Notes under the pieces: generated by a model
What the model saw: the letters and a program-made list of their open reading frames with translations, nothing else
Databases searched by the model: none
Told to the model about the DNA's origin: nothing
Program-made: the position numbers and the translations under genes
IMG/VR virus record: IMGVR_UViG_3300024323_000013
Coordinates: 1 to 37,590 of that record
From: a virus
Reading direction: 5' to 3' (one strand)
Length of the DNA: 37,590 nucleotides
In this document: piece after piece, positions 11,448 to 37,590 of the stretch
How the letters are laid out: each line of letters begins with the position of its first letter
How positions within the stretch are numbered: the stretch's first letter is position 1

Positions 11448-11771
11448 CTACTGAACCTCCACGCAATAGATCTGAAGCTGCTCGGCGTTCCCGTCGGGAT
11501 CGCCAAAGGACGAAATCTGGAGACTCCGTCCAGTCGATGGCTCGAACAGTCGCCAACTCGCCTGGAGATCCTCGCGATAGCGAATCGTCACCACGTAGCT
11601 CCCAGTGGCGTGCGGGGTTTCGAACCGCAACAGTTCGTTTCCACGCGCCGACATTTGTGCGCCCCAAATCGTGTCGATGTCGTCGTAGGACGACGGATCG
11701 AGCCCGGCCGATGGCTTCTGCAGCACGTACTCGTGATTGAGATCGCCCGCGTTGATCGCTACCACGGCCAA
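11448..11771 (-). CDS. Head-tail adaptor (head-tail joining) protein
   Basis: A 107-residue protein (MAVVAINAGDLNHEYVLQKP) of the phage head-tail joining family. The 'aGdLnHeV.lq.p' opening, DIDTIWGAQMSARGNELLRF, VVTIRYREDLQASWRLF and a final QIYCVEVQ strand are all family-like. These small beta-barrel proteins dock on the connector and form the neck with the tail terminator. The gene overlaps the connector gene by 13 nt and precedes the tail terminator gene. Confidence 0.8.
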   Translation of the reverse strand: MAVVAINAGDLNHEYVLQKPSAGLDPSSYDDIDTIWGAQMSARGNELLRFETPHATGSYVVTIRYREDLQASWRLFEPSTGRSLQISSFGDPDGNAEQLQIYCVEVQ

Positions 11772-12430
11772 TTCCAGGGCGTATGAAATGACGCACTCGA
11801 ACGCGTTAGCGAAATAGTTGGCAGCGCCGTGTATTTCAACGCGTCCATCACGGACTTTGCCCCGATCGGCAGTTGCAGAATGTTGGCGCGCGCCTCTGAG
11901 ACTTCCTCACCGTACTTGTGGAAATGCCCAACGAGCATCATCAGCGCGTAACGAATCAGTTCCGAGACATCGCCAATGGCATCGCCGTAGCCAGCGCGAT
12001 ACCGGATCCGCATCGGTCCAGTCGGCCAGGTGGCGCCTGAGACCAGCACGACACGCCCGCGACGCGCGTACGGACCACTCGGCGCGATGACCGTGTAGGC
12101 ACTCGCGTCAAAGGTCTGCTCGATCCCAGTCGCATCGTCAAAGACAATGCTCAGCACCGCCTGTAGCGGCGGATGCGGCAGTTCGATCACGCAGCCGCTC
12201 GGGCCGCAATCGAGCCGCGTTTCCCACGTCGCGGTCATAAGTTGTCGGCCGGTCTGCTCTTCAAAGAGCTGCCGCGCCGCAGGAATCCACAGATCGAACA
12301 AGGTATCCAGCGATGTCGCCGTCACCCGTCGCTGCTTCTTCACCTCCTCGAGATCCAACGGTTCGAGACGTGGCGGGATAATCAGCGAGTCCTCGCTGCG
12401 GATCTCGTTGTCCATGAGATCGCGTCTCAT
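11759..12430 (-). CDS. Head-tail connector protein, HK97 gp6-like
   Basis: A 223-residue protein starting at an ATG that overlaps the glycosyltransferase stop (ATGA). The middle carries family hallmarks: LFDLWIPAARQLFEEQTGR, 'ELPHPPLQAVLSIVFDD', YTVIAPSGPYARRGRVVL, 'MRIRYRAGYGDA', then a helix ELIRYALMMLVGHFHKYGE. This is the gp6-type adaptor that assembles on the portal. It should normally follow the capsid gene closely; here about 6 kb of sugar-enzyme genes separates it from portal and capsid. Confidence 0.8.
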   Translation of the reverse strand: MRRDLMDNEIRSEDSLIIPPRLEPLDLEEVKKQRRVTATSLDTLFDLWIPAARQLFEEQTGRQLMTATWETRLDCGPSGCVIELPHPPLQAVLSIVFDDATGIEQTFDASAYTVIAPSGPYARRGRVVLVSGATWPTGPMRIRYRAGYGDAIGDVSELIRYALMMLVGHFHKYGEEVSEARANILQLPIGAKSVMDALKYTALPTISLTRSSASFHTPWNWPW

Positions 12431-12960
12431 GCGTGCCCCCGACCGAGCTGCGTCAAAACTTCAGGACGCCACACGATCTCAGACGCGCCCCAGTGCATCG
12501 TCTGCAGGAAATGCAGATCCCCGCAGTCCTGCCGTTCGCCCCACGTCCCGAGCTTCGCGGGCTCATTTGGCATGAAGATCATCGGCGTGCCGACGTTGCC
12601 CCACCGGACCATCTGGTCCTGCCAGAGCATCGTCCCGTCCGGGAGCCGCATCCGAAAGATCGTGAGCCGATCCGGTGCCGCCTCGATCGCGGAAGCCATC
12701 AGCGCGCGATGGCCGGGCACGTACACATCGTCGTCATCGATGTGCGCGAGATACTGCCCACGCGAGAGCGGCGTCGCGATATTGCGTTCCGTACTGCCCC
12801 AGTCGTGCCCCGGCGGGCAGGCGACATACCGGATATGGCCGTCCGTCTGCGTCGGCACGTTGCCGATCACGATGATCTCGTCGCCGGGCCAGCACTCGAT
12901 CGACGCGAGTGTGTCGGCCAGCGACGGACGTCCGACGGTGGCGATGATGAAGCTGATCAT
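12427..12960 (-). CDS. GT-A (family 2-like) glycosyltransferase, short
   Basis: A 177-residue protein starting MISFIIATVGRPSLADTL, the usual GT2 beginning (beta-strand then 'T..R...L...L'). The nucleotide-sugar metal motif is likely HIDDDDVYVPGH (near residues 93-104). Near the C-terminus there is a Trp-rich segment (MHWGASEIVWRP). At 177 residues it is shorter than typical GT2 enzymes (about 220-300) and may be a minimal catalytic domain. It is the last gene of the sugar-enzyme cassette and overlaps both neighbours by four nt. Confidence 0.75.
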   Translation of the reverse strand: MISFIIATVGRPSLADTLASIECWPGDEIIVIGNVPTQTDGHIRYVACPPGHDWGSTERNIATPLSRGQYLAHIDDDDVYVPGHRALMASAIEAAPDRLTIFRMRLPDGTMLWQDQMVRWGNVGTPMIFMPNEPAKLGTWGERQDCGDLHFLQTMHWGASEIVWRPEVLTQLGRGHA

Positions 12961-13607
12961 GCGGCGATCCTCAGCTTGCTCACCGCATCCTGCACGGCCT
13001 GTGCATGCGTTCCGGTCCAGTACGTGGGATCGCGTCGATAGATGTCGTTCTGGCTCGTCTCGTCCCCCACCCAGTCGTGAACGATCTCGACTTGGGGCAG
13101 CATCACGCAGCGATCGAAAGCGGCCATCACGTCACGAAGGAAGATGTCGCCCCAAAAGATGCGGGGATCCCAGAGGAAGCCCAGACGTTCGACCACCGTC
13201 CGCGCCACACACGCGAACGGAAAGTGACTCGCGTTGTGCGTGGACACGCCAAGATCGAAGATCCCATCCTGGTAGCGATCGGCCGCGTCCAGGATCATCC
13301 GCGGCCAGCCAGAGGTCTTGAACACCATGTCATCGTTGCCACAGAGCAGCACGTCACCCTGCGCCACAGCCGCTAACTCGTTGAAAAACGTCGGCAGACT
13401 GATGTAGCCCTGCAGCCGTGGACCGACGACGACGCGATAGCCACGCCCGGCCAGGAACTTGAACGTCTCATGGTCATCGTCATCGACTCGGAACACGAGT
13501 TCCGCGCAGGGTGAATCACCACAGGTCAGCCAGTACGATGCGATCATCCGCTGCAGGCAATGCAGCCGCTGACGCGTGGGCACGAGGACAGAGACCTTCG
13601 TGAACAT
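12957..13607 (-). CDS. GT-A (family 2-like) glycosyltransferase
   Basis: A 216-residue protein beginning MFTKVSVLVPTRQRLHCLQ, a classic GT2 first strand and helix. FRVDDDDHETF (about residues 39-49) and LLCGNDDMVFKT (about 87-98) look like nucleotide-binding and DxD-type metal-binding loops. DPRIFWGDIFLRDVM and VEIVHDWVGDE near the C-terminus fit acceptor-site acidic residues. It probably transfers a sugar from a nucleotide donor in the cytoplasm. The two-nt gap to the radical SAM gene and the four-nt overlap with the next transferase place it firmly in the cassette. Confidence 0.8.
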   Translation of the reverse strand: MFTKVSVLVPTRQRLHCLQRMIASYWLTCGDSPCAELVFRVDDDDHETFKFLAGRGYRVVVGPRLQGYISLPTFFNELAAVAQGDVLLCGNDDMVFKTSGWPRMILDAADRYQDGIFDLGVSTHNASHFPFACVARTVVERLGFLWDPRIFWGDIFLRDVMAAFDRCVMLPQVEIVHDWVGDETSQNDIYRRDPTYWTGTHAQAVQDAVSKLRIAA

Positions 13608-13609
13608 GT

Positions 13610-15208
13610 TCAGTGTCCCGCGTAGCTCAGGCCACTCGCAGCCGTGATGGTGCCGTCCTTCTCTGCCTCGACTTGCTGCTGTCTAATCCGCACGTCTTCT
13701 TGCCACTCTTGCTTTGCCCACCCGTGATGCACGAGGAAATCGAACATTTCGCGCTTGATCTGGAACATCTCTTCAACCGTCGCGCCGTGCGGACGCACGA
13801 GGATCTCGTCGCGCGCAGAGAAGCCCACGATCCACTGGTTGTCGTAGTTGTAATCGAGGATGTCGAGTCCGCTTTCCTGCGGATGCGTCCACCACCGCGA
13901 CCCTGGATAGGGAATCCCCACCGCGAGGTTGCAGGAGTCCAGGTAGGGCTTGACGGACTCCAGCCAGCGCATCGTTTCGCGCGCCGTCTCTAGCGTTTCT
14001 CCGGCCAAACCTGCCACGAGGAACGCGATCGTGTAGAACCCGTGCTTTTTCGCGGTGATCAGCGCGTCGGTGTTCTGCTGAACTTTCGTGCCCTTCCAGT
14101 TCGCATCGAGGACACGCTGACTGCCGCTCTCGATGCCGAAACACGTCACCTTCGTGTTCATCAGCTTGAGCGACTCGGCGACGTGATCATCCATCGTGTT
14201 GACGCGCGTGTGGATACGGGCCGCGAAGCTATCCGCTCCGAAGGCATCGTGAACCGCCACCGCCAGTTCGCGGAGCTTCGTCTTGTGCAGCGTGTACGTG
14301 TCGTCCTGGAATTTGAACATCCGCACGCCTTTGTCCATCACCTGCGCCATCTCGGCGATGATGTTGTGGGGCGAGCGATAGCGCGGCTTCTGCCCGATCC
14401 ACGGCGTCGAACAGTACGTGCATTTGTACGGACAGCCACGCGTGCCGATGAGCGACATCACCGCACTGGACGAGTCGGGATAGGCGGCGTTCGGGAAGTA
14501 CTTCGTCTTCATCACCGCTACGCCGTCGTTGTAGATGTGGTCCTGCGGCAGTAGATCCCACGCCGGAAACGGAATGGCGTCGAGGTCCATCGCGTCCGCC
14601 TTGTCGCCGTAGTAGTAGGGCTGGAGTTTCCCCGCGTCCCAATCGCTGAGCATCTGCAACGTCGCGACTTCGCCCTCCATCACGATCACCGTATCGAATA
14701 GTTGCCGGCCATCCACCGCGCGATAGTCGCGTCGCTCACGCAGTGCGCCTTTGTAGTGGTAGGCGTCCTGTCGCCCGGCTTCCTTGACTTCTTTCGGCTC
14801 ATAGGACGGGTGCGGGCCACCTGCGACGACGAGCGCATCAGGGTTGCGATCCTTGATGTAGGCGGCCAGTTCCAGCGCTTCACCAAACTGCGGCGTGCAG
14901 AACCCAAACATGTGGACGTCGCTGTCCATCACCTCTTCGGGCAGGTGGATGTTCCCCTCGTAGCGCTTCTCGAGCATCGAGGTCACGACAATCTCGTGGC
15001 CCTGCGCTCGCAAGAGCCCCGCGATGTAGAGGACGCCCAGCGGGATGTTCGTTTTCGAATCAGCCAGCCATGGCGATGACGGCAGAATGCAGTGAATCTT
15101 GCGCGGACGAATCTTGCGGATCGGCAGTCCTGACGTCGGCACCGCGTCGCAGAGACTCGTGTCACTCATCTGGTAGCCGGATGTGGCCATCGTGAGCGGC
15201 TTACCCAT
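13610..15208 (-). CDS. Cobalamin-binding radical SAM enzyme (class B type)
   Basis: A 532-residue protein from ATG 15208; an alternative GTG lies three codons upstream. Residues about 35-140 form a Rossmann-like B12-binding domain (KIHCILPSSPW, PLGVLYIAGLLRAQGHEI, ALVVAGGPHPSYEP). It lacks a DxHxxG motif, as many class B enzymes do. The radical SAM core carries the 4Fe-4S site GCPYKCTYC (Cys259, 263, 266), then MFKFQDDTY, ARIHTRVNTMDD, CFGIESGSQRVL and AFLVAGLAGETLETA. The family includes methylases and other C-H-activating enzymes such as BchE-like cyclases; the substrate here is unknown. Being flanked by glycosyltransferases suggests a sugar, lipid carrier or protein acceptor that is methylated or rearranged. 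Confidence 0.9.
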   Translation of the reverse strand: MGKPLTMATSGYQMSDTSLCDAVPTSGLPIRKIRPRKIHCILPSSPWLADSKTNIPLGVLYIAGLLRAQGHEIVVTSMLEKRYEGNIHLPEEVMDSDVHMFGFCTPQFGEALELAAYIKDRNPDALVVAGGPHPSYEPKEVKEAGRQDAYHYKGALRERRDYRAVDGRQLFDTVIVMEGEVATLQMLSDWDAGKLQPYYYGDKADAMDLDAIPFPAWDLLPQDHIYNDGVAVMKTKYFPNAAYPDSSSAVMSLIGTRGCPYKCTYCSTPWIGQKPRYRSPHNIIAEMAQVMDKGVRMFKFQDDTYTLHKTKLRELAVAVHDAFGADSFAARIHTRVNTMDDHVAESLKLMNTKVTCFGIESGSQRVLDANWKGTKVQQNTDALITAKKHGFYTIAFLVAGLAGETLETARETMRWLESVKPYLDSCNLAVGIPYPGSRWWTHPQESGLDILDYNYDNQWIVGFSARDEILVRPHGATVEEMFQIKREMFDFLVHHGWAKQEWQEDVRIRQQQVEAEKDGTITAASGLSYAGH

Positions 15209-15983
15209 GAAAGACACCCTGCTCGTCGTAGTGCGGATGATCCGGCCCGTCGTACCGGTCCCAGAGTTCGGGTAGGCTCACGCCGATGTCCTTGAGTTGC
15301 TGATGGGCCACGGCGAGGTCTCTCGGCGCCACGTACTCATGTCTGGGGTGATAGAACAAAATCTCAGGCAACCGTACACACTCCACGCCAGCCCGCACGA
15401 TCTGGTACTGAAACAGGGTCTGCGCATGCCCATAGGCGGTGAGCCGTTCATCGAGTCCACCTACAAGATCAAATGACTGGCGGCTGGTGAACCACACGCC
15501 AGAATCGATCGCTGTGTGCGCGTATTCGCGGCCGAACGGGCGCAGCACCGATGGGCCACACCGCCGCCAGTCCGTCCGTTCGCACGCGTGAACGTCCGCA
15601 CGCAGGTCGTAATAACCGCCCACGACAAACGCGTCCGATGACGTCGAGGCGCTCACGAGCCGTTCAACCGCGTCAAACGACAGTAGATAGTCTGCCCGTG
15701 TGAAGAGCACCTGTGGCGAGGACGCGTGCGAAACCGCCACATTCGTCGACCAGGAATGCGTCTTCCGTGCGTCTTCGTGCTTGTAGGAGTGCAGATGCAC
15801 GGGCACAGGGAAATTCAGCGAACCAAAGCACGCCTGGATGTTCTCGATCGCGTCGTCGGTGTTGTTGTCGACGAGGACGATTTCGCTCACCTCTGCGAAG
15901 TTCTGCTGACGGATCGAGAACAGCGCGGCAGCAAGGTTCGCCAGCGTGAGACTCCGGTAATACGTGCAGCAGATCGAGATCAT
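15201..15983 (-). CDS. GT-A (family 2) glycosyltransferase
   Basis: A 260-residue protein with the full GT2 layout: MISICCTYYRSLTLANLAAA, then EIVLVDNNTDDAIENI (donor-binding loop), STNVAVSHASSPQVLFTRAD (metal loop with R-A-D instead of a full DxD), and a late LVGGLDERLTAYGHAQTLF, which matches the 'GG.DE....YG.' acceptor/catalytic motif of family 2. It overlaps the radical SAM gene by eight nt at its end and the next transferase by four at its start. The sugar and acceptor cannot be read from sequence. Confidence 0.85.
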   Translation of the reverse strand: MISICCTYYRSLTLANLAAALFSIRQQNFAEVSEIVLVDNNTDDAIENIQACFGSLNFPVPVHLHSYKHEDARKTHSWSTNVAVSHASSPQVLFTRADYLLSFDAVERLVSASTSSDAFVVGGYYDLRADVHACERTDWRRCGPSVLRPFGREYAHTAIDSGVWFTSRQSFDLVGGLDERLTAYGHAQTLFQYQIVRAGVECVRLPEILFYHPRHEYVAPRDLAVAHQQLKDIGVSLPELWDRYDGPDHPHYDEQGVFHG

Positions 15984-16600
15984 GCCAATGCCTCGACCAG
16001 CCCTGGATACGCTTCAAGCCGAAACACGAACGTGGTCTCATCGACGTGCTGCCACCGCACGCCACGCGCCATCAAGGCATTGATCAGCTCCCAGTCCCAG
16101 GAGAAGCAGCCCTGTGCCGGCAGGTTGTCGTTGAACTGGTCGCGCAAGACGGACCGCCTGAATAGCGGTTGGCCGAGATCGACACCTGCCCCAACTGGCG
16201 GGCAGTACCGCAGTTCTTTTCGGCCCGCATAGAGGCAGGAGCTGTAGACGAACCCAAGATCAGGATCGGCGTCGAGCGCGGCGACAAGAGGGCCGAAGTG
16301 ATTCGGCAAATAGGCGTTGTCATCGCTCAGGAAACAGACGTATTCGCCGACGCTGGTGCGCAGGCCAGCCATCGCCGGGGAGATCCCCCAGTCGTTGGTC
16401 CGTATGGGCAAGTCCAGATGCCGGACATGGGCGTCGGCGCAGACTTGCGCGATCTCTGAGATCACCGGCTGACCAGGCGCATCAGAGACGACGATCTGCT
16501 CAAGATCGCGATACTGCAGATGCTGCACGGAGCGCAGGCAGCGCCGGAGACAGTTCACACGATCGAAAACGGTAGTGACAATACTCACGCGCGGAGTCAT
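15980..16600 (-). CDS. GT-A (family 2) glycosyltransferase
   Basis: A 206-residue protein: MTPRVSIVTTVFDRVNCLRR is a textbook GT2 N-terminus, DLEQIVVSDAPGQP is the second strand, EYVCFLSDDNAYLPNHF carries the S-D-D-N metal loop, and CFSWDWELINALMARGVRW holds the likely catalytic acidic residues. It is somewhat short for the family. Several cassette transferases share this size, suggesting a set of related small enzymes that diverged after duplication or were recruited together. It overlaps both neighbours by four nt. Confidence 0.85.
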   Translation of the reverse strand: MTPRVSIVTTVFDRVNCLRRCLRSVQHLQYRDLEQIVVSDAPGQPVISEIAQVCADAHVRHLDLPIRTNDWGISPAMAGLRTSVGEYVCFLSDDNAYLPNHFGPLVAALDADPDLGFVYSSCLYAGRKELRYCPPVGAGVDLGQPLFRRSVLRDQFNDNLPAQGCFSWDWELINALMARGVRWQHVDETTFVFRLEAYPGLVEALA

Positions 16601-16800
16601 AGCTTTTTCTGCTCAGTCAACACGTACCGCTTCGCAATGGCCGGCAGTTTCTTCAGATCATCAGAGTCAGGATAAAACTCAACCTCTGCTGTCGCTACGG
16701 CATCGACAGAAAAGTGCAGGTCTAGCTTTTTGACGTTTTTCAACCCCAGCGCATCGCAGATTTCCTTCGCAAGCACTGACGATCCGAAAAGCACGCTCAT
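16597..16800 (-). CDS. 67-residue protein in sugar-enzyme cassette, unknown
   Basis: Starts at ATG 16800 (MSVLFGSSVLAKEICDAL), overlapping the TGA of the CgeB-like gene; the frame is open further upstream but only over that gene. The chain is an alpha helix (LAKEICDALGL), two strands (KKLDLHFSVDAVATAEVEFY) and a lysine-rich end (DDLKKLPAIAKRYVLTEQ). It has a general look of small phage proteins of unknown role, and I cannot name a family. Its insertion between two transferase genes could mean a regulatory or binding role in the modification pathway, or a leftover of the ancestral head operon. Confidence 0.65.
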   Translation of the reverse strand: MSVLFGSSVLAKEICDALGLKNVKKLDLHFSVDAVATAEVEFYPDSDDLKKLPAIAKRYVLTEQKKL

Positions 16801-17705
16801 GCGGCCACTTCCAATCCCACCGTGGCGAGCACCGACTGCAGACGCGACGCGTAGGTATGCCCCACGAGCCGCGCCGCGCACCGCTGCCGAATGTCTTCAC
16901 AGTCGACCGGATGCGAGAGGAAATACGCGATCAAGTCGACGCACTCAGCTTCGGTGCGAAACGTCGGCAGTTCCGGGACGATCGCATCCACCTCTGGACG
17001 CCATTCGCTGACCACCAACGCTCCGCACGCGAGCGCCTCGTATACGCGCGGGTTCAGCGCCGTCGCAGGAATCTGATGCCGGTTGAAGTGATGCACTTCG
17101 CGGAAGACGTTCAGGATGATCTTCGTCTGCCGATAGAGTCCGGCGGTCATGTCCGGCGTGATGTTGCCACTCAGACATCGCGCATTCACCGATGCATACG
17201 CCCACGATCCTCCGACCACGTAATCGAGCAGATCCGCGTCAGCCAACGCGGCGAGGTAGCGATCGCGCGTGGGATTGCCTCCCCCGATAAAGCCCACACG
17301 TCGCCAGCGCGGACTATCGTCGGCATAGTGAACGTGCGGGTCATAGCAGACCGGCAAATACGAGGCATGCGGATGACGTCCCAGCGTCGCCTGATCGTTG
17401 ACGAACACATGATGAAAGAGCTGCGAGCGTGTCGCCGTGTCGTCGACTTCGTAGGGTTCATCGAGCAACCAGACTGCCGTCCTCGCCGCGAACGCCGCAG
17501 GGCGATTCGTGTGGCAGAACTTGCGACCGTGAACGACGAAGAAGACGTCAGGCTTGAAGGCGTTGCACTGCTGAATCAGATCAGGCACCGACCAATCCGC
17601 GTGCGCATAGTCGATGCCGAGATCCTGCGCGGCGTGGAAGAGTCCTTGCGTGAAGACGTCTCCACAGGAAAGGAATTGGTAATCGCAACAGAATACGCGT
17701 GGCAT
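16797..17705 (-). CDS. CgeB-like (GT-B type) glycosyltransferase
   Basis: A 302-residue protein from ATG 17705 (MPRVFCCDYQFLSCGDVF), sharing one base with the previous stop (TGATG). It resembles the CgeB/DUF3880 group: an N-terminal Rossmann half with KPDVFFVVHG, then RRVGFIGGGNPTRDRYLAAL, then the C-terminal signature LNVFREVHHFNRHQIP..LNPRVYEALACGALVVSEW, in which 'N.R.YEA.ACGA' contacts the donor. It differs in fold from the other cassette transferases, so the pathway uses both GT-A and GT-B enzymes. Substrate unknown. Confidence 0.85.
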   Translation of the reverse strand: MPRVFCCDYQFLSCGDVFTQGLFHAAQDLGIDYAHADWSVPDLIQQCNAFKPDVFFVVHGRKFCHTNRPAAFAARTAVWLLDEPYEVDDTATRSQLFHHVFVNDQATLGRHPHASYLPVCYDPHVHYADDSPRWRRVGFIGGGNPTRDRYLAALADADLLDYVVGGSWAYASVNARCLSGNITPDMTAGLYRQTKIILNVFREVHHFNRHQIPATALNPRVYEALACGALVVSEWRPEVDAIVPELPTFRTEAECVDLIAYFLSHPVDCEDIRQRCAARLVGHTYASRLQSVLATVGLEVAA

Positions 17706-18322
17706 CACGCGGCACACTCCAGCCGGGCGAGTTCCGTCTTGAGCGGTGCGCAAGGAAACGCCGTCAGCGCGGTACGACGTGAGCAGTTGACGACAGACAC
17801 GCCAACAGACTTCAGCGGATCGACGAGCGTCTCGAACGCCGCGCACATCTGCGCGTAGGGCGAGATCCGATGCACCGGATGATCACCAAACCAGTGCGTC
17901 TGCGTGCCGTCATTGCCCATGTCGAACCCGAGCAGTAGGATGCTCGCGGCCCCGAGATGCACGGCCAGATTCAGCGCTTGATAGCCGCTATTCGATCCCG
18001 TCCGCAGTCCAGAGGGATCGAGTTCTAAGCCCTCAGGGCCGGTGTTTCGCAGGACGGTCCAGTCCGCGCGTGTCGTCGGATTGGCGGATTCGATCGAGTA
18101 CTTCATGCCGGCAAAGTCAGGCACACCCTGATGCCAGTCCTCGATCCATTGCCGATCAGCCGCATAGAGGACATCGGCCCACGGTGCCAACTTGTACGCG
18201 TCGTTGACAGCGATCACGCGGGTCTGGCCCCGCACGGCCTCGACGTCGGCGACCGTCAGCGACGGTCCCCCAGCGATCAACGTCACGGTCTGTCCTGGCC
18301 AGAGCTTCGGGACGGGTTTCAC
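17705..18322 (-). CDS. DUF115/MptE-like Rossmann protein
   Basis: A 205-residue protein from GTG 18322, which overlaps the collagen-like gene's TGA and has a strong GGGGAGGAA site upstream. It opens with WPGQTVTLIAGGPSLTVADV, the 'GGPSL' nucleotide-binding loop of the DUF115/6-hydroxymethylpterin pyrophosphokinase-like group. TRVIAVNDAYKLAPWADVLY and SILLLGFDMGNDGTQTHWF follow, both family-like. Relatives include motility-accessory (Maf) sialic acid transferases and small phage proteins found next to glycosyltransferases. It may be a sugar transferase or nucleotide-sugar enzyme. First gene of the cassette. Confidence 0.75.
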   Translation of the reverse strand: MKPVPKLWPGQTVTLIAGGPSLTVADVEAVRGQTRVIAVNDAYKLAPWADVLYAADRQWIEDWHQGVPDFAGMKYSIESANPTTRADWTVLRNTGPEGLELDPSGLRTGSNSGYQALNLAVHLGAASILLLGFDMGNDGTQTHWFGDHPVHRISPYAQMCAAFETLVDPLKSVGVSVVNCSRRTALTAFPCAPLKTELARLECAA

Positions 18323-19419
18323 GAGAAGTTCCTCCCCGCGTCGCCGCGCTCGCCCTTCATCCCGATCGGTCCCGGCGGACCAGGCTTGCCGTCTTTCCCG
18401 TCGCGGCCGCACTTCACCGCCAGCCGCCACTTGGTCACACCGACGCCTGGCTTCTCGCTCGTCGCGTCCTGCGCGATCCAGAACGAGCCGCCATACGTCG
18501 TGCCGTCGCCTTTCTCGTACATTCGGCCGGCCTGGTAGACGCCACGATCGAGCACGGTCGGAGACTTGAACATCCCAGAGAGCGCCGATCCGTCGGACCG
18601 CACGAGCCTCCAGGAGCGTTCGTCGACCTGTTCCAGGCTGGCCCCTTCCAGCGTCCCGTCGCGTCCAGGTGCGCCGTTGAGCCCCTTCTCACCGCGCTCG
18701 CCAGCCGCGCCGTCGCGTCCAGCCACACCGGGCACACCTGGCTGCCCATCCCGGCCGTCTTTGCCGTCAAGGCCATCCTTCGGCTTGGGCACGAGTTCTG
18801 CTGCTCTCAAAGCCAGGTCATCGACGTCTACAACCGGCGCGTCCTTACCGTCGATGCCGTCGCGCCCGTCCTTGGGGACTGGAATCAATGCGGCGGCGCG
18901 CACGGCGACGTCCTGGACATCGACCGCTGGCGCATCCTTGCCATCGAGTCCGTCACGCCCGTCGATCCCATCTCGCCCGTCTTTCGGGACGGGAATCAGC
19001 GCAGCGGCGCGCACGGCGACCTCGTCTACATCAACCTCAGGCGCATCTTTCCCGTCCACGCCGGCGCGACCGTCGATCCCGTCCTTGCCGTCCTTCGGCG
19101 TGGGAATCAGCGCAGCGACTTGTTGCACGATCGCGTCGACATCAACGGGCGGCGCATCCTTGCCGTCGAGACCGTTCCGACCATCGATACCGTCGACACC
19201 GTTCGCCCCGTCTGCCCCACGTTCACCGACAAGTCCAGGCTCTCCGCGTTCGCCGCGCTCGCCGACAGGTCCACGTTCACCGGCTGGTCCGGGAACGGGC
19301 GCACGCAGTTCAAGTTGAGCCACCTTGGCGATCAAGGCCGCGAGCTGCGCGTCGCGTGAGGCATTGGAGGCACGAACGGCCGCGACCACGACATCAGCGA
19401 TCTTCTCGGTCTCGGTCAT
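18319..19419 (-). CDS. Collagen-like virion fibre with carbohydrate-binding-like segment
   Basis: A 366-residue protein encoded immediately after the portal. Residues 5-40 are a helical, probably trimerising, segment. Gly-X-Y repeats follow at 44-88 (GPAGERGPVGERGERGEPG), in parts of 109-160, at 217-256 and at 338-363, rich in GDx, GxR and GxK. Residues 85-217 hold four copies of a 31-37-residue unit (DGKDAPxVDVxxVAVRAAAL). Residues about 290-335 (GVYQAGRMYEKGD, GGSFWIAQDAT, KPGVGVTKWRL) resemble a small CBM5/12-type carbohydrate-binding module. It could be a trimeric head or neck fibre that holds polysaccharide. Collagens are often glycosylated, and the sugar-enzyme cassette starts right behind this gene. 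Confidence 0.85.
   Translation of the reverse strand: MTETEKIADVVVAAVRASNASRDAQLAALIAKVAQLELRAPVPGPAGERGPVGERGERGEPGLVGERGADGANGVDGIDGRNGLDGKDAPPVDVDAIVQQVAALIPTPKDGKDGIDGRAGVDGKDAPEVDVDEVAVRAAALIPVPKDGRDGIDGRDGLDGKDAPAVDVQDVAVRAAALIPVPKDGRDGIDGKDAPVVDVDDLALRAAELVPKPKDGLDGKDGRDGQPGVPGVAGRDGAAGERGEKGLNGAPGRDGTLEGASLEQVDERSWRLVRSDGSALSGMFKSPTVLDRGVYQAGRMYEKGDGTTYGGSFWIAQDATSEKPGVGVTKWRLAVKCGRDGKDGKPGPPGPIGMKGERGDAGRNFS
18754..19167 (-). repeat. Four-copy 31-37-residue coding repeat in collagen-like gene
   Basis: Four imperfect tandem units code for residues 85-222. Each begins DGKDAP, continues VDV, then a short helix (AVRAAALIPVPKDG) and a few Gly-X-Y triplets. Units 2 and 3 are nearly identical over VAVRAAALIPVPKDGRDGI; unit 3 is six residues shorter. 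The repeat may expand or contract by recombination and so tune fibre length. Confidence 0.85.
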
Positions 19420-20828
19420 GCAGCGACCTGCAAGCCCTTAAGCACGAGCGACAACAGTTCGTCCTGATCGATCGCCTTGGCCGGCGGTGGCGCCGGCTTC
19501 GCGTCCGGCTTGGGGTCATTCACCGGCGCGGCGCTGCCAGGACCAGGCACAAACGGCGCCGGACCCTGCTTGTCGCGACGATCGAGCGCGGCCAGGCTGA
19601 AGTTCTGCTGCTGCAGGTACGGCGAATCCCCACCGGCGACAGGGGCCAGATTGAATTTCTTCCGCGCTTCATTCGGTGAATAGACGCCACCAATGACGCC
19701 TTTGGTCGCGGCCTCCATCTTCTGGACGCTGTCCATCCGATCGAGTTCTTCGACGCAGAACTCCACCTCGTACCCAGCGGAGTCGAGCTCGAGTCCTTCC
19801 GTGAGGCAGAGTTCCAGCGATTCGAAGTAGTACTGCAAACATTGCCCGTAGTACTGCTGCCCGAGCGCTTCGACGTTGTTGTAGGACGGGAGCGGGCCGA
19901 CGCTGACCATGTGCGGCGGGACGTGATGCACCGCGCAGATTTTTTCGTCGCCCCACTTCAACTGATCGATCAACTGCGAATCGACAGCCGTCATCACCGT
20001 CGGCTTTTCGAACTTCAGTCCGTCTCCGAGCACAGCGACCTTGCCGATGTTCTGCTCACCTGAGTAGTTCGCCGCCCAGTAATCCTCGAGACGTTTTGCT
20101 GTGTCGGCGCTGATCGTCCCCGGTGCCGTCAGCACTCCACCGATCTGCGATCCGTTGCGGAACAGCCGTGTCGCGTTCCCGACAATCGTCAGTCCCTGGA
20201 TCGCGGTATGCCCACATGCGTACACGGGAGAAAACCCACACAGCGGGTGATACGGCGCGAATCCGATGTCGTGAATGATTTCTCGCGCCGGAATCACGAT
20301 GGAGGCTTCGGTCAGGTCCGCGAGCAGATCCTGCTGGCACGCATAATAGACGTCGCCAGATGGTGAGACGAGCGGGCGCACGCGCAACGGATCGAGCACA
20401 TAGAGATCCGTGACGATGCCGCGGGCGTCACGCTGCTTCAGCGCGTAGGTATTGCCGCGCATCAACTTGGACAGCATCCACGAGGTGAGAAACTGGATCC
20501 GGTTCTGGTAGTGGTTCGGTCGATCGAGCACTGGCGCGTAGGGCGACTGACGCTCGACTTCGGTATCGACCCCGTCTTTTTCTTCAACGAGCTTCGGACG
20601 GATCTTTGCGATGTCTCCAGCGATCAACGTCACGCACGCCCAGTACGTCGGGTGCGTCATGACGTCTTCGACTGGTACGGCCACACCGCGCTGCCAGGCG
20701 CCGGCAAATGACTCGCGGATCACAGGCCACCAACCCGCATTCGACGCTGGGATGTGCGTGATCCCATCACCCAATGACGCGGACGCCGTCTTCGTATCGA
20801 TCAGCAACCGACCGATCTGAATCTTCAT
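19416..20828 (-). CDS. Portal protein, HK97 type
   Basis: A 470-residue protein (MKIQIGRLLIDTKTASAS) of HK97-family portal size. Recognisable parts are MTHPTYWACVTLIAGDIAKI, LDRPNHYQNRIQFLTSWML, GNTYALKQRDARGIVTDLYV, LSPSG-type turn VSPSGDVYYAC, IHDIGFAPYHPLCGFSPV, and FEKPTVMTAVDSQLIDQLKW followed by ICAVHHVPPHMV. The C-terminus after about residue 420 is Pro/Asp-rich and flexible. Twelve copies would form the vertex ring for DNA packaging with the terminase. Overlaps of four nt on both sides tie it to the small upstream gene and the collagen-like gene. Confidence 0.93.
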   Translation of the reverse strand: MKIQIGRLLIDTKTASASLGDGITHIPASNAGWWPVIRESFAGAWQRGVAVPVEDVMTHPTYWACVTLIAGDIAKIRPKLVEEKDGVDTEVERQSPYAPVLDRPNHYQNRIQFLTSWMLSKLMRGNTYALKQRDARGIVTDLYVLDPLRVRPLVSPSGDVYYACQQDLLADLTEASIVIPAREIIHDIGFAPYHPLCGFSPVYACGHTAIQGLTIVGNATRLFRNGSQIGGVLTAPGTISADTAKRLEDYWAANYSGEQNIGKVAVLGDGLKFEKPTVMTAVDSQLIDQLKWGDEKICAVHHVPPHMVSVGPLPSYNNVEALGQQYYGQCLQYYFESLELCLTEGLELDSAGYEVEFCVEELDRMDSVQKMEAATKGVIGGVYSPNEARKKFNLAPVAGGDSPYLQQQNFSLAALDRRDKQGPAPFVPGPGSAAPVNDPKPDAKPAPPPAKAIDQDELLSLVLKGLQVAA

Positions 20829-27232: not shown

Positions 27233-28528
27233 TTAGGTGCCTTTGATGCCAACGAGTTCTGGTTCATCTGCTCTAATCGCGGCTGATCCGTCACGGCCAC
27301 GCACCGAGACGGCAGCCGTCGAAGCGCGCACATTCAGCGATCCTTCCGATCCGCGCACAGTGGTCGATCCAGAGCCACCGCGTGCGCCGGCCAGGACCAG
27401 CGGTTGATCGAACGGCGGATGAAGAACACCGACCGCGATCGTCCCAAGCGTCGATACGCTGCCTAAGCCACTGAGCGGCCTCGTGATCGCAACTCCCGAG
27501 GAACCTTGCCCACTCGCGCCAGATAGCCCCATGAGACTGCGCGAGAGTTGCGACGAGACAGATCCGAGCCCAGCGGTCGCCGCGACGCCCGTGAGCGCCG
27601 CGGTTTTATCGGCTCCAGCGGTGACGGTCCCGATCGCACCCGTCGCGGACACACCCGTGAGCGCTAAAGTGCCACCATGCGCTTGCGTCACGGTCCCGAT
27701 CGCGCCGGTACTACTCAGTCCGGTGAGGGCGATCGTCGTGACCGGTGCCACCGGGCCAACAGCTGATGTGCCTGCAGATCCCGTGATCGATCGCGTCGTC
27801 GAAGGCGTCACCGTGCCGGTGGAACTCGTACAGACAACACCGGACAGAATGGGGCTGACGAGAATCGAGCCGAGGCCGTTTGAACCGGAGACGCCAGTCA
27901 GGGAGACAGTGCCGCCGTGGGTTTCTGTGACGGTACCAAGTCCGGTCGTCCCAGCGACACCCGATAGCGCTGCCGTGACGTCGCCGCCAGCACTGACGCT
28001 GCCTTGCCCGCATGTGCCAACAAGGCCCGCCAACGCGACCGAGAGCGTCGGCGCGATGGTGCCGGGACTACCGGTCGCTGACACACCGGTCGCGGCCGGC
28101 GCGGAAATTATCGCGATCGTCCCGACACTACAGGTGGCCGCTTGGCCGGTCAGGACTTGAGCATGGCTCGCTAGGACACTCCCGACGGACGCCGTGCCGC
28201 TGACGCCGGTCAGCGCAACTGCGGTCGTGGGCGCGATGGTACCAGTCGCACCGGTCGCACTGACGCCGGTCAGCGCAACCGAACCGCCATGTGTTTGACT
28301 GACCGTGCCGACTGAGCCGGTGCTTGACACACCGGAGGCGGCAACCGTGGTGGTAGGAGCGACAGCACCCGCAGAAGCGGTTGAGGAAACGCCCGTGAGC
28401 GCAATCGTGATCGCGAGCGCGACCGTGCCGACCGCGCCAGACGCAGAAACATGCGTCAGGCTGGCAGTTTTGTTCGCACTGCCAGCCTCAAGAAGTTCTG
28501 GATCAAACCACCCGAGAAAACCTGACAT
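27233..28528 (-). CDS. Repeat-rich fibre-like protein
   Basis: A 431-residue protein. It opens MSGFLGWFDPELLEAGSANK, a segment often seen in phage structural genes. About 17 tandem units of 18-23 residues follow with the pattern 'ALTGVSxTGxxGTV' plus a variable Thr/Ser/Ala-rich half. The regular Gly spacing suggests a beta-solenoid or stacked beta-hairpin shaft. The last 60 residues carry a second short repeat (VRGSEGSLNVRA, VSVRGRDGSAAIRA). There is no catalytic motif. It could be a fibre shaft whose length varies by repeat number. It belongs to the appendage cluster upstream of terminase. Confidence 0.75.
   Translation of the reverse strand: MSGFLGWFDPELLEAGSANKTASLTHVSASGAVGTVALAITIALTGVSSTASAGAVAPTTTVAASGVSSTGSVGTVSQTHGGSVALTGVSATGATGTIAPTTAVALTGVSGTASVGSVLASHAQVLTGQAATCSVGTIAIISAPAATGVSATGSPGTIAPTLSVALAGLVGTCGQGSVSAGGDVTAALSGVAGTTGLGTVTETHGGTVSLTGVSGSNGLGSILVSPILSGVVCTSSTGTVTPSTTRSITGSAGTSAVGPVAPVTTIALTGLSSTGAIGTVTQAHGGTLALTGVSATGAIGTVTAGADKTAALTGVAATAGLGSVSSQLSRSLMGLSGASGQGSSGVAITRPLSGLGSVSTLGTIAVGVLHPPFDQPLVLAGARGGSGSTTVRGSEGSLNVRASTAAVSVRGRDGSAAIRADEPELVGIKGT
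27413..28462 (-). repeat. About 17 tandem 18-23-residue coding repeats
   Basis: Units share the core LTGVS-x-T-x3-GTV and alternate between about 20 residues (ending APTTT or similar) and about 22 residues (ending TQTHGG- or AGGD-like). Some adjacent units are nearly identical (LTGVSATGAIGTV and LTGVSATGATGTI), which suggests growth by recombination. Confidence 0.85.
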
Positions 28529-28534
28529 GAGTCG

Positions 28535-29056
28535 TTAGGCGATCCGGATGAGTCCGTTCGTCGCGTCATTGGTGGGCATCGTCAGCGTGAACGTGCCAGC
28601 CGTGACCGTCTGGCTGCCGAATGTGAACACCGCTACTTCGAGTGAACTAGTGGATGCGCTGTTGTAGAGCACCATGCAGTCAAAGGCGCCGCTCGAGGTC
28701 AGCGCCGCCCACGAGAGCGACGCGCTCGGTGTCCAAAAGGCCGTCGTGCCGCTCGTCGTTGGAGCGGTCGCATTCGTGACGGCAATGCCGCCTTGCGTGT
28801 AGTTGCCCGTGCCCGCAAGCTCTCCCGTCGTGTTGTAAACGGTGTCGCTCGCGCCCCGTGACGCGGACACGAGAAACAGCGCGGCCTTGAACGTGTCCTT
28901 CGTCGTCACGGTGCGCGTCCCGTTGGCGCCTTGCGCGCCAAACGCGTGACTCCCGTTCAGCAGCTCCTGCTTGAATGAGGTACACATCGCTTGCACGTTC
29001 GCCCACAGGTAACCATCGGGCGATTGCGTGAAGACTTGCAGTAATCGGCTCAGCAT
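28535..29056 (-). CDS. Fibre/appendage protein, unknown
   Basis: A 173-residue protein (MLSRLLQVFTQSPDGYLWAN) with a helical N-terminus and a beta-rich remainder (KAALFLVSASRGASDTVYN, GGIAVTNATAPTTSGTTAFW, VFTFGSQTVTAGTFTLTMP). The closing strands resemble capping domains of phage tail appendages. AGGAG lies 12 nt before the ATG. It lies between the repeat fibre gene and a small Cys/His gene, in the appendage cluster. No specific family recognised. Confidence 0.6.
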   Translation of the reverse strand: MLSRLLQVFTQSPDGYLWANVQAMCTSFKQELLNGSHAFGAQGANGTRTVTTKDTFKAALFLVSASRGASDTVYNTTGELAGTGNYTQGGIAVTNATAPTTSGTTAFWTPSASLSWAALTSSGAFDCMVLYNSASTSSLEVAVFTFGSQTVTAGTFTLTMPTNDATNGLIRIA

Positions 29057-34941: not shown

Positions 34942-35142
34942 TTAGCTTTCTCCTCTTTTGTGCTCCTGTGGGGGCGCGACCGCCGCCGTATGTCTAACTA
35001 GATATTCTTCAAACGTCTCGTTCGGGTGCTCGATGCGCTCACGAGAGCGCAGACAGCGTGTGCAGTAGGTAAAGTCCCACCCCCATTCATCGCTCACGCC
35101 GTGATACCGATGACCGAGCCACCAGCAGATCAGGCGCTTCAC
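34942..35142 (-). CDS. Small Cys/His protein, DUF1660-like
   Basis: A 66-residue protein from GTG 35142, overlapping the previous TGA (GTGA) and eight nt after AGGAG. It reads MKRLICWWLGHRYHGVSDEW (initiator Met), WDFTYCTRCLRSRERIE. A Cys, His and C-x2-C set resembles the small phage DUF1660 'C..fGH......C.rC' zinc-binding proteins. The C-terminus is the shared tail VAPPQEHK plus RGES. Function of the family is unknown. Confidence 0.7.
   Translation of the reverse strand: MKRLICWWLGHRYHGVSDEWGWDFTYCTRCLRSRERIEHPNETFEEYLVRHTAAVAPPQEHKRGES
34959..34978 (-). repeat. Junction element copy
   Basis: Same 20 nt as at 34504; codes for APPQEHK of the DUF1660-like protein. A second GAGGAG follows and serves the membrane micro-gene at 34941. 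Confidence 0.85.
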
Positions 35143-35837
35143 TTCGTGTGCTCCTGTGGGGGCGGGGCGACCGCCCACAAGTGCTGAACGACTCGCCCTT
35201 CGCCTTTCAGGAACCACGCCTGAATGATCGACGCATCCTCAGCGCGAGCAAATCGCACAGCATTTTCGTGCTTCTCGCTCCACGGATAAAACGCCTGCGT
35301 GGAGGGACCGGGGCAGGCGTGGCCGTCGAAGTATTCCAAGATGCTGTGGTGATACCGCTCGATCACGTATCCGACTTCGCGCGTGTCCATCGAGTTTTCC
35401 TTTTGGGGCGCGGGCGGGGCGACAGACGCCTCCCCTGCTGGATCGGTGAATCGAATCGTGGTTTCGAACGGCGGATTGCAGCCGGGATAAATCATCTGGC
35501 CAAAATCCGACATCAGCGACCAGAGCTGCCAGCGTGACCAGCCGTCGTTCTCAGCTTCCTGCTGTTCGACTCGCTTCAGTTCGCCAAGCTCAATCCGAGA
35601 AGTTTTGCGCCACTCCACTTCGCGCGCACGCAGGAGATCCTTCCCAGGCTTCCGTAGCTTGACCCACACGTATTCGTTCAAATTAAATTCTGGCGGGGCG
35701 AGGGCGATCGCGCGGGCGGACGCCCCGACCGAGGGATGAAAGGTTGCCATCTCCAACGGTCCTTTGCACGCGAAGCACTTCATACTCTTCGCAAATCCCT
35801 GCGTTGCGTGGCAGTTCTGACAAATCCAAAAGCTCAT
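35139..35837 (-). CDS. Zinc-ribbon protein; apparent in-frame fusion of two genes
   Basis: A 232-residue protein from ATG 35837. Residues 1-46 are a zinc ribbon (WICQNCHATQG, MKCFACKGPLEM) identical at DNA level to the copy at the window end. Residues 47-148 are helical/beta of unknown type (EYVWVKLRKPGKDLLRAREV, GWSRWQLWSLMSDFGQMIYP). The linker GEASVAPPAPQKENS leads into MDTREVGYVIERYHHSILEY (residue 150 on). The linker DNA contains AAGGAAAAC just before that ATG (35390), so the last 83 codons look like a once separate gene, or are still started internally. The end VAPPPQEHTK is the shared tail. Confidence 0.7.
   Translation of the reverse strand: MSFWICQNCHATQGFAKSMKCFACKGPLEMATFHPSVGASARAIALAPPEFNLNEYVWVKLRKPGKDLLRAREVEWRKTSRIELGELKRVEQQEAENDGWSRWQLWSLMSDFGQMIYPGCNPPFETTIRFTDPAGEASVAPPAPQKENSMDTREVGYVIERYHHSILEYFDGHACPGPSTQAFYPWSEKHENAVRFARAEDASIIQAWFLKGEGRVVQHLWAVAPPPQEHTK
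35147..35164 (-). repeat. Junction element copy
   Basis: Minus strand CGCCCCCACAGGAGCACA: codes for PPPQEHT at the end of the fused zinc-ribbon gene and gives AGGAG eight nt before GTG 35142. Confidence 0.85.
35405..35436 (-). repeat. 32-bp linker repeat, copy 1
   Basis: Identical to 37018-37049. Codes for GEASVAPPAP in the fused zinc-ribbon gene, just before the internal AAGGAA...ATG. Confidence 0.85.
35688..35717 (-). repeat. 30-bp ARAIALAPPE-coding repeat, copy 1
   Basis: Identical to 37294-37323; part of the same sequence also occurs in the 127-bp repeat at 37464. Codes for the linker after the zinc ribbon. Confidence 0.85.
35702..35828 (-). repeat. 127-bp exact repeat, internal copy
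   Basis: Identical to 37464-37590 (offset 1762). It codes for the zinc-ribbon N-terminus of the gene at 35837. The match begins at GGGCGATCG and would continue or stop beyond the window edge in the other copy. Confidence 0.95.
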
Positions 35838-36082
35838 TTCGCCTCCTGCGGCGGGCAACCCGAATCAGACACCGACGAAGAAGCTTTAACCCGCCGCTTC
35901 TTCGGACCCACGCGCACGACGGAAGCTACAGCGTCGGCGTCGAGTCCTTGTCGAACGAAGTCGAGATTGATTTCAGCGGTCTGCTTGTCGCGAAACCTCA
36001 CGATTGGGCCTGAGCCTGCGATGTCGCCGTGACGAAGCCACCCTACGCCACGAGGAAACACCACGCGAATTACGTAGGGCAT
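35834..36082 (-). CDS. Early-region protein, unknown
   Basis: An 82-residue protein from ATG 36082 (MPYVIRVVFPRGVGWLRHGD); a GTG three codons upstream is the alternative. A weak AGGTG precedes the ATG. The chain has VRFRDKQTAEINLDFVRQGL and a basic segment (VGPKKRRVKASSS) and ends CPPQEAK, a degenerate form of the shared tail. It overlaps the next gene by four nt. No family recognised. Confidence 0.6.
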   Translation of the reverse strand: MPYVIRVVFPRGVGWLRHGDIAGSGPIVRFRDKQTAEINLDFVRQGLDADAVASVVRVGPKKRRVKASSSVSDSGCPPQEAK

Positions 36083-37249: not shown

Positions 37250-37590
37250 AATTCCTCGCTCTTGATACGAGGCCACTGTATTGGCTTCTCCTGTTCTGGC
37301 GGGGCGAGGGCGATCGCGCGGGCCTCCAATCGATTTGCTGCTGCGTGCATGGCATCGCTCGCATACGAGCATGTCATCGACAGGCCCATGTCGTTGTGCT
37401 TGTCGTAGCCATCCAGCACGTCAGCCGACGCACGAAGCTGCGCAATCAATAATTCGTCCTGCGGGGCGATCGCGCGGGCGGACGCCCCGACCGAGGGATG
37501 AAAGGTTGCCATCTCCAACGGTCCTTTGCACGCGAAGCACTTCATACTCTTCGCAAATCCCTGCGTTGCGTGGCAGTTCTGACAAATCCA
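37246..37590 (-). CDS. Zinc-ribbon protein, 5' end outside window
   Basis: The gene is open to the window edge. The visible part begins WICQNCHATQG, as in the gene at 35837, where three residues (MSF) precede it, so only the start codon and a few bases are probably missing. The zinc ribbon (C-x2-C twice) is followed by a helical region (DELLIAQLRASADVLDGYDK, ASDAMHAAANRLEARAIALA) and ends PPEQEKPIQWPRIKSEEL. The DNA for EQEKP again holds CAGGAGAAG, here followed by ATA rather than ATG. Confidence 0.65.
   Translation of the reverse strand, partial: WICQNCHATQGFAKSMKCFACKGPLEMATFHPSVGASARAIAPQDELLIAQLRASADVLDGYDKHNDMGLSMTCSYASDAMHAAANRLEARAIALAPPEQEKPIQWPRIKSEEL
37294..37323 (-). repeat. 30-bp ARAIALAPPE-coding repeat, copy 2
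   Basis: Identical to 35688-35717. Codes for the linker near the end of the partial zinc-ribbon gene. Confidence 0.85.
37464..37590 (-). repeat. 127-bp exact repeat, terminal copy
   Basis: Identical to 35702-35828 and ends exactly at the window end. It codes for the zinc-ribbon start of the partial gene. An end lying precisely at a 127-bp repeat is what a k=127 de Bruijn graph assembly would give. Confidence 0.95.

Follow-up and report, generated by a model that had tools for sequence, protein, structure and literature searches.

The window studied here is the IMG/VR record IMGVR_UViG_3300024323_000013, a viral genome fragment of 37,590 bases in one piece, whose late genes lie on the minus strand. 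Between the genes for the portal and a collagen-like portal-adjacent protein and the gene for a gp6-type head-tail adaptor, it carries a cassette of eight genes. These encode an MptE/DUF115-like protein, a CgeB-like glycosyltransferase, a 67-residue open reading frame (ORF), the glycosyltransferases GTa and GTb, a radical S-adenosylmethionine enzyme with a B12-binding domain (rSAM), and the glycosyltransferases GTc and GTd (Table 1). All eight genes listed in a preliminary description of this DNA were present at the positions given there, on the minus strand.

Seven of the nine junctions from the collagen-like gene to the adaptor gene are 4-base ATGA/GTGA overlaps or start/stop overlaps of 1–7 bases. 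GTb and rSAM overlap by 17 bases; with the conserved ATG at 15208, probably the start of rSAM, the overlap shrinks to 8. A gap of 2 bases separates rSAM from GTc. Promoter-like and terminator-like sites did not exceed the numbers expected by chance (1 versus 1.6 and 5 versus 5.5, respectively). The GC content at third codon positions of the seven enzyme genes (0.72–0.83) is on par with that of the structural genes, the only outlier being the 67-residue ORF (0.59). Because of the overlapping junctions, the lack of promoter- or terminator-like sites above chance and the composition resembling that of structural genes, we consider the eight-gene block an integral part of the late operon. Overlaps, composition and gene order thus bear out the earlier view of one operon shared with the virion genes, which would be expressed late.

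The catalytic motifs of the phage-encoded glycosyltransferases are intact. Residues D39N40, K68H69 and R96A97D98Y99 of GTb (including the R-A-D-Y motif) are conserved in 28 loci, and the GNDD motif of GTc and the DDDD motif of GTd (residues 75–78) are invariant. The PHROG family of the MptE-like protein is labelled alpha-2,3-sialyltransferase. Its AlphaFold model is good (predicted local distance difference test, pLDDT, 80), and comparison with the PDB gave no significant fold match, the most probable structure listed being thiamin pyrophosphokinase (3k94, E=0.02, template modelling score 0.36). For the 67-residue ORF no relative was found in the three family databases, by tblastn against phages, or in the loci mapped below.

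Table 1. Genes of the cassette and its surroundings in the window, in order of transcription
Feature	Position	Strand	Evidence
Terminase, upstream flank	25654-23798	-	
Capsid gene, protease-fused type	23283-21316	-	phrog_617
Portal protein, flank	19416..20828	-	phrog_2271 E=2e-106
Collagen-like portal-adjacent protein with conserved C-terminal domain	18319..19419	-	PF01391 2e-19; PAJU2 ORF007 32% identity, E=6e-20
MptE/DUF115-like, module 1, GTG start	17705..18322	-	phrog_4603 1e-43; PF01973 8.5e-5 (below cut-off); PAJU2 ORF010 36% identity
CgeB-like GT-B glycosyltransferase, module 1	16797..17711	-	PF13524 3e-18
67-residue ORF	16597..16800	-	no Pfam/PHROG/NCBIfam match
GTa, GT2-type glycosyltransferase, module 1	15980..16600	-	PF00535 5e-13
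GTb, GT2-type glycosyltransferase, core	15201..15983	-	PF00535 2e-8
rSAM, B12-binding-domain radical SAM enzyme, core	13610..15217	-	PF04055 8e-18; PF02310 5.6e-12
GTc, GT-A-type glycosyltransferase, core	12957..13607	-	phrog_14945 3e-14 (glycosyltransferase PHROG); PF00535 0.07, below curated cut-off
GTd, GT-A-type glycosyltransferase, core	12427..12960	-	PF00535 5e-4, below curated cut-off
gp6-type head-tail adaptor, flank	11759..12430	-	phrog_442 5e-25

Beyond the adaptor, the genes for head closure, tail terminator, major tail protein and tape measure follow in the order of transcription. At the end of the window, a truncated frame (37414-37590, minus strand) is 72% identical to part of the product of 35139-35858 (minus strand).

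Recurrence of the core and composition of the slot

A scan of viral contigs for rSAM detected 27 loci at 78–88% identity, and a second scan added three viral contigs, one of them at 73%. Some contigs are near-copies (L005/L030, L013/L037, L033/L048 and L039/L040; L numbers denote the loci), and independent lineages are fewer than contigs. Mapping against the window and cluster representatives revealed a constant core with the order GTb-(methyltransferase, MTase)-rSAM-GTc-GTd, which usually includes the MTase. Apart from the window, about 31 viral contigs and one contig of a metagenome-assembled genome share this core, and its carriers are phages represented by metagenome sequences only. GTb, GTc and usually GTd adjoin rSAM where the contig reaches far enough, with the exception of L046. 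In this locus an MTase-GTb pair lies 2.3 kb before rSAM, GTc and GTd were not found, and no structural gene was recognised near rSAM.

Loci of the window type (group A) have the order collagen-MptE-CgeB-GTa-core-adaptor, and this collagen-to-adaptor slot is used in the window and in L030, L031, L032, L037, L045, L049 and L050. In group B the capsid is of another type (phrog_771/264) and the genes run protease-decoration-capsid-adaptor-Hc-core-GTe-GT4-Ne1-terminator-tail protein-chaperones-tape measure, with the core in the Hc-to-Ne1 slot (L008, L029, L033-L035, L038, L041, L042, L044, L159). A third slot follows the Hc1-like (head-closure-like) gene in L043, and a fourth lies between TerL and capsid in L015. 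At least four separate positions are thus used by the core, and its carriers have capsids of unrelated types. Almost every readable locus places it inside the head/neck/tail operon, and none of those mapped sets it in a lipopolysaccharide locus. Scattered genes, or genes tied to host lipopolysaccharide loci, had been named beforehand as the observation that would speak against the proposed cassette; neither was seen across the homologous loci, and the recurrence of the same gene order in many contigs confirms that the overlapping run is not a product of chance. Judged from these gene orders, the core is mobile and exchanged between unrelated tailed phages.

Of about 85,000 species genomes of bacteria and archaea, a single one contained a close rSAM copy, on a contig of a Sulfuricaulis metagenome-assembled genome that also encodes phage head genes (protease, decoration, capsid) and tail genes; as conserved peptides are the basis of the scans, distant bacterial relatives would escape them. 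Four of 299 further bacterial genomes gave weak, partial matches. The sole match to rSAM in a cultured phage, Streptomyces phage SF3, lies near an integrase gene and beside thymidylate kinase and NUDIX genes. It covers 41% of the query at 25.6% identity, and we rejected SF3 as a carrier of a related system.

A scan with the portal protein yielded 80 relatives. In L062, L063, L064, L066, L067, L073 and others the core is missing and, in contigs long enough to show it, the adaptor comes next after collagen-MptE-CgeB-GTa. No insert is present in L121, L126, L127, L129 and L131, in which portal-ORF007-Ad1-Hc1-Ne1-terminator stand back to back. From these gene orders it follows that relatives differ in the content of the slot: some have nothing in it, others MptE-CgeB-GTa (module 1), and the window has both modules. 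The eight genes had been regarded as one system; instead, they combine the mobile core with a separate module, which belongs to the collagen-bearing relatives of the window lineage.

Related genes were also seen at other positions. A second CgeB-like gene is located between the tail terminator and the major tail protein in several loci (L030:12156-12557, L032:15372-15746, L049:8967-9341 and others), where the window has two short ORFs. In two relatives without the core (L057:2508-5278 and L066:2309-7332), a further set of genes resembling methyltransferases and glycosyltransferases lies between terminase and capsid, each of the two sets ending in a GTd homologue (48–49%).

The radical SAM enzyme and its counterpart in sister cassettes

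The CxxxCxxC motif of rSAM is complete, and its cysteines (C262, C266, C269) are invariant in 14 sequences. The N-terminal cobalamin-binding domain scores above the cut-off of PF02310, and binding of cobalamin is predicted. The AlphaFold model of the enzyme is poor (pLDDT 57). In L050:9986-12859 (plus strand) the homologue is a single open frame of 958 residues with an intein-like insert (CFVQGTLID ... FFAHGIATHN, PF14890 2.5e-5); the position right behind this insert (+1) is taken by the third cysteine of CxxxCxxC. The gene in L042:9091-10701 (plus strand) has one in-frame TGA near the N-terminus, the remainder being conserved, which may be a sequencing error or a broken gene.

To describe the constraint on the cassette genes, we used pairwise counts of synonymous (pS) and nonsynonymous (pN) differences in diverged pairs, leaving out values spoiled by start-site or frame errors (rSAM in L042/L044 and, for part of the pairs, the MTase). 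pS was about 0.5–0.8 in nearly all genes. rSAM, with a pN of 0.08–0.15, was the most constrained gene tested; pN was 0.15–0.41 in most glycosyltransferases and about 0.5 in TerL. High pS together with low pN indicates that the rSAM gene has long been part of the cassette and is maintained by selection, and has not spread recently. Recent transfer as the cause of its high identity was rejected, since its synonymous sites are as diverged as those of its neighbours.

A scan with GTc identified sister cassettes in which a different protein replaces rSAM, and a subsequent scan with this swap protein gave 11 loci. In 10 of these it sits at the rSAM position (some are cut by contig ends) and in L181 it lies elsewhere; among the former, L144, L154, L155, L163-L165, L168 and others have it between MTase and GTc. 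The swap protein has about 400 residues and the domains PF08421, PF13489 and PF08484, the set of the sugar C-methyltransferase family. By phmmer it matches the D-mycarose 3-C-methyltransferase MtmC (4rv9, E=4e-38) and TcaB9 (E=5e-34), with a conserved HEH stretch. These enzymes belong to a different family from rSAM, and no homologue of them occurs in the window; rSAM and the swap protein co-occur in no locus. At least two replacement events are required by the GTc tree, in which the group A sequences fall among those of group B. The distant locus L171 has a two-domain glycosyltransferase, a B12-domain radical SAM enzyme (26%) and a GDP-mannose-4,6-dehydratase-like gene (PF16363 1e-50) side by side, all downstream of an SU10-type capsid gene; identity of its glycosyltransferase-rSAM pair is 26–33%.

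Since a homologue of a sugar 3-C-methyltransferase takes its exact place in sister cassettes, rSAM likely C-methylates a sugar. We infer methyl transfer to a sugar carbon solely from this replacement, and on these sequence comparisons we hold methylation to be slightly more probable than not. That rSAM acts on a sugar substrate of some kind is considerably more probable. GenD1 and GenK, B12-domain radical SAM enzymes, C-methylate sugar carbons of gentamicin (PMC4340712). By description they resemble the phage enzyme; they differ in belonging to a natural-product pathway, and a Cx4Cx2C motif is reported for GenD1 versus Cx3Cx2C in rSAM. We do not file rSAM as a member of this type, only as an enzyme likely to work like one.

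Several observations weigh against methylation. The B12 domain lacks a DxHxxG motif; this lack is usual for the class but makes binding of B12 putative. rSAM falls into no named methyltransferase subfamily of NCBIfam, all scores being far below the curated cut-offs; the nearest were HpnJ (99.9 of 577.6), PhpK (97.3 of 600) and BchE (91.9 of 481), and with these as its closest families the enzyme may perform another radical reaction. By sequence profile, the nearest solved structure is the diol-dehydratase AprD4 (6fd2, 7e-16). The enzymes of the swap family normally use 4-keto sugars, whereas B12-dependent radical SAM methylases act on unactivated carbons, and the products may differ. HpnJ works downstream of a glycosyltransferase. 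In line with these matches, rSAM could catalyse dehydration as AprD4 does, ring contraction as HpnJ does, or epimerisation; the swap would then mean a different change of the sugar, and the target could still be the virion. Such a non-methylating enzyme appears rather unlikely to us, since the substitute belongs to the sugar C-methyltransferase family and has been swapped in at least two independent events, and since the B12-binding domain above its cut-off is what is expected of a cobalamin-dependent methylase.

Probable target of the predicted glycan and related systems

In the loci examined, no clear transmembrane segment was found in the proteins of the cassette (highest hydropathy over 19 residues mostly <1.6, maximum 1.9), and the cassette contains no flippase, polymerase or acetyltransferase. 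The combination of membrane glycosyltransferase and flippase that marks gtrABC-type O-antigen conversion is therefore not present. Genes for nucleotide-sugar synthesis were likewise not found in the cassette, and transfer and tailoring of host-supplied sugars fit it better than the multi-step sugar synthesis assumed in the preliminary description.

The explanation we favour, with a little more than even confidence, is a late, two-module glycosylation cassette of the virion operon, in which rSAM would C-methylate or otherwise tailor a sugar and the glycan would be placed on the particle. The soluble enzymes would be made late, and the glycosyltransferases would build a short glycan from nucleotide sugars of the host. 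rSAM would C-methylate one of the sugars in this glycan, before transfer (as the nucleotide sugar) or afterwards, in the way GenD1 and GenK act on gentamicin sugars, and the acceptor would most likely be a structural protein of the particle. A more specific version is put forward tentatively: the radical SAM enzyme may be restricted to phages and make branched, C-methylated sugars for a virion glycan, within a mobile cassette in which a classical sugar C-methyltransferase can stand in for the radical step.

Acceptor, glycan and enzyme activity are predicted here from genes, and a place in a structural operon does not prevent a gene product from acting on the host envelope. Late remodelling of O-antigen or capsule, which would block superinfection or prevent re-adsorption of progeny to debris, with the genes simply carried along in the structural operon, is the first explanation given for most phage glycosyltransferases, and soluble glycosyltransferases can use lipid-linked sugars inside the cell. 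Cassettes of glycosyltransferase and radical SAM genes in the host-recognition cluster of pelagimyophages have been read as modifying the O-chain (PMC7029224). In contrast to the cassette, those genes lie beside tail fibres in a hypervariable island and not in a conserved head-neck slot. We consider envelope remodelling unlikely for the cassette, considering its position in the structural operon of unrelated phages, the absence of membrane-bound and export functions, and the one close copy among the species genomes, which is itself on a contig with phage head and tail genes. Together with the absence of a lipopolysaccharide context, the same points agree with the earlier view that the virion is a likelier target than the host surface.

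Phages also use glycosyltransferases to decorate modified bases of their DNA with sugars (Pyle 2024, cited in PMC12619734). A role of the cassette in such DNA hypermodification is highly improbable, as its genes stand with structural and not with replication genes; no gene for a thymidylate-synthase-like hydroxymethylase or other base-modifying enzyme was found among the window proteins scanned, a weak argument for a fragment.

With regard to the acceptor, the collagen-like protein was rejected as a general candidate for the core, as 23 loci with sibling cores have no collagen tract, which also weighs against the favoured explanation. Among the portal relatives, collagen tract and MptE co-occur (26/6/2/11, Fisher p=7e-5, relatedness uncontrolled), and the collagen-like protein is a fair candidate acceptor for module 1. 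The C-terminal domain of this protein also exists without collagen repeats, in PAJU2 ORF007. The idea that long portals are portal-collagen fusions was rejected on L043, which shows no similarity. Upstream of the terminase, the window encodes a serine/threonine-rich protein (28535-29056, minus strand; 27% serine plus threonine, phrog_644). A 37% homologue follows the portal gene in L070 and L071; in L037 and L069 it is flanked by portal and collagen. The window protein and the product of the neighbouring 27233-28528 (29% serine plus threonine) are possible acceptors of O-glycans. The MptE homologue ORF010 of PAJU2 (L055, AP009624.1) is called 'structural protein' in the original record, a label that would be relevant to the target if the protein is part of the virion.

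Sets of phage glycosyltransferases and glycosylation of virions are already known. Glycosylated mycobacteriophage virions were described by Freeman et al. 2023 (as cited in PMC11600133 and PMC12619734), and in cluster O mycobacteriophages capsid and tail tube are reported to be modified by three phage glycosyltransferases encoded next to an O-methyltransferase (PMC11600133). By description, these systems share with the window several tandem glycosyltransferases with a methyltransferase, and their reported targets are capsid and tail-tube proteins; they differ in that no B12-domain radical SAM enzyme is reported for them, and the window is known from its genes alone. Among cultured phages, PAJU2 (Detrevirus, P. 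aeruginosa) shares the capsid-portal-ORF007 backbone and has an MptE homologue (36% identity), the unassigned gene ORF011 and a methyltransferase between Hc1 and Ne1. GT4-MTase-GT2 lie between capsid and gp6-type neck protein in phiPsal1, and GT4-GT-MTase between portal and protease in S-CBS4. Unlike the cassette, these three sets, of putative function, lack a radical SAM gene and have fewer glycosyltransferases. Such small sets in the head operons of cultured phages, and the glycosylation reported for mycobacteriophage capsid and tail tube, likewise speak for the virion as the target of the cassette. The earlier statement that no phage system of this composition has been described consequently applies to the part with the B12-domain radical SAM enzyme, within the searchable literature, and does not hold for small sets of glycosyltransferase and methyltransferase genes. 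We found no report of such an enzyme as the conserved centre of a glycosyltransferase set, of mobility between head-neck slots, or of exchange with a C-methyltransferase, in a search that left many subscription papers and all preprints outside.

If the favoured explanation is true, phages would use radical chemistry to produce branched sugars as a coat for their particles, with an enzyme whose protein sequence is more constrained than the phages' own terminase or portal. The virus coat would then depend on cobalamin of the host, and phage assembly would be linked to the supply of vitamin B12. It would also give a testable handle on why phages glycosylate their virions, and yield a radical SAM family specific to phages in which a control comes built in, since its exchange for members of a known sugar C-methyltransferase family allows the reaction to be forecast ahead of any assay.

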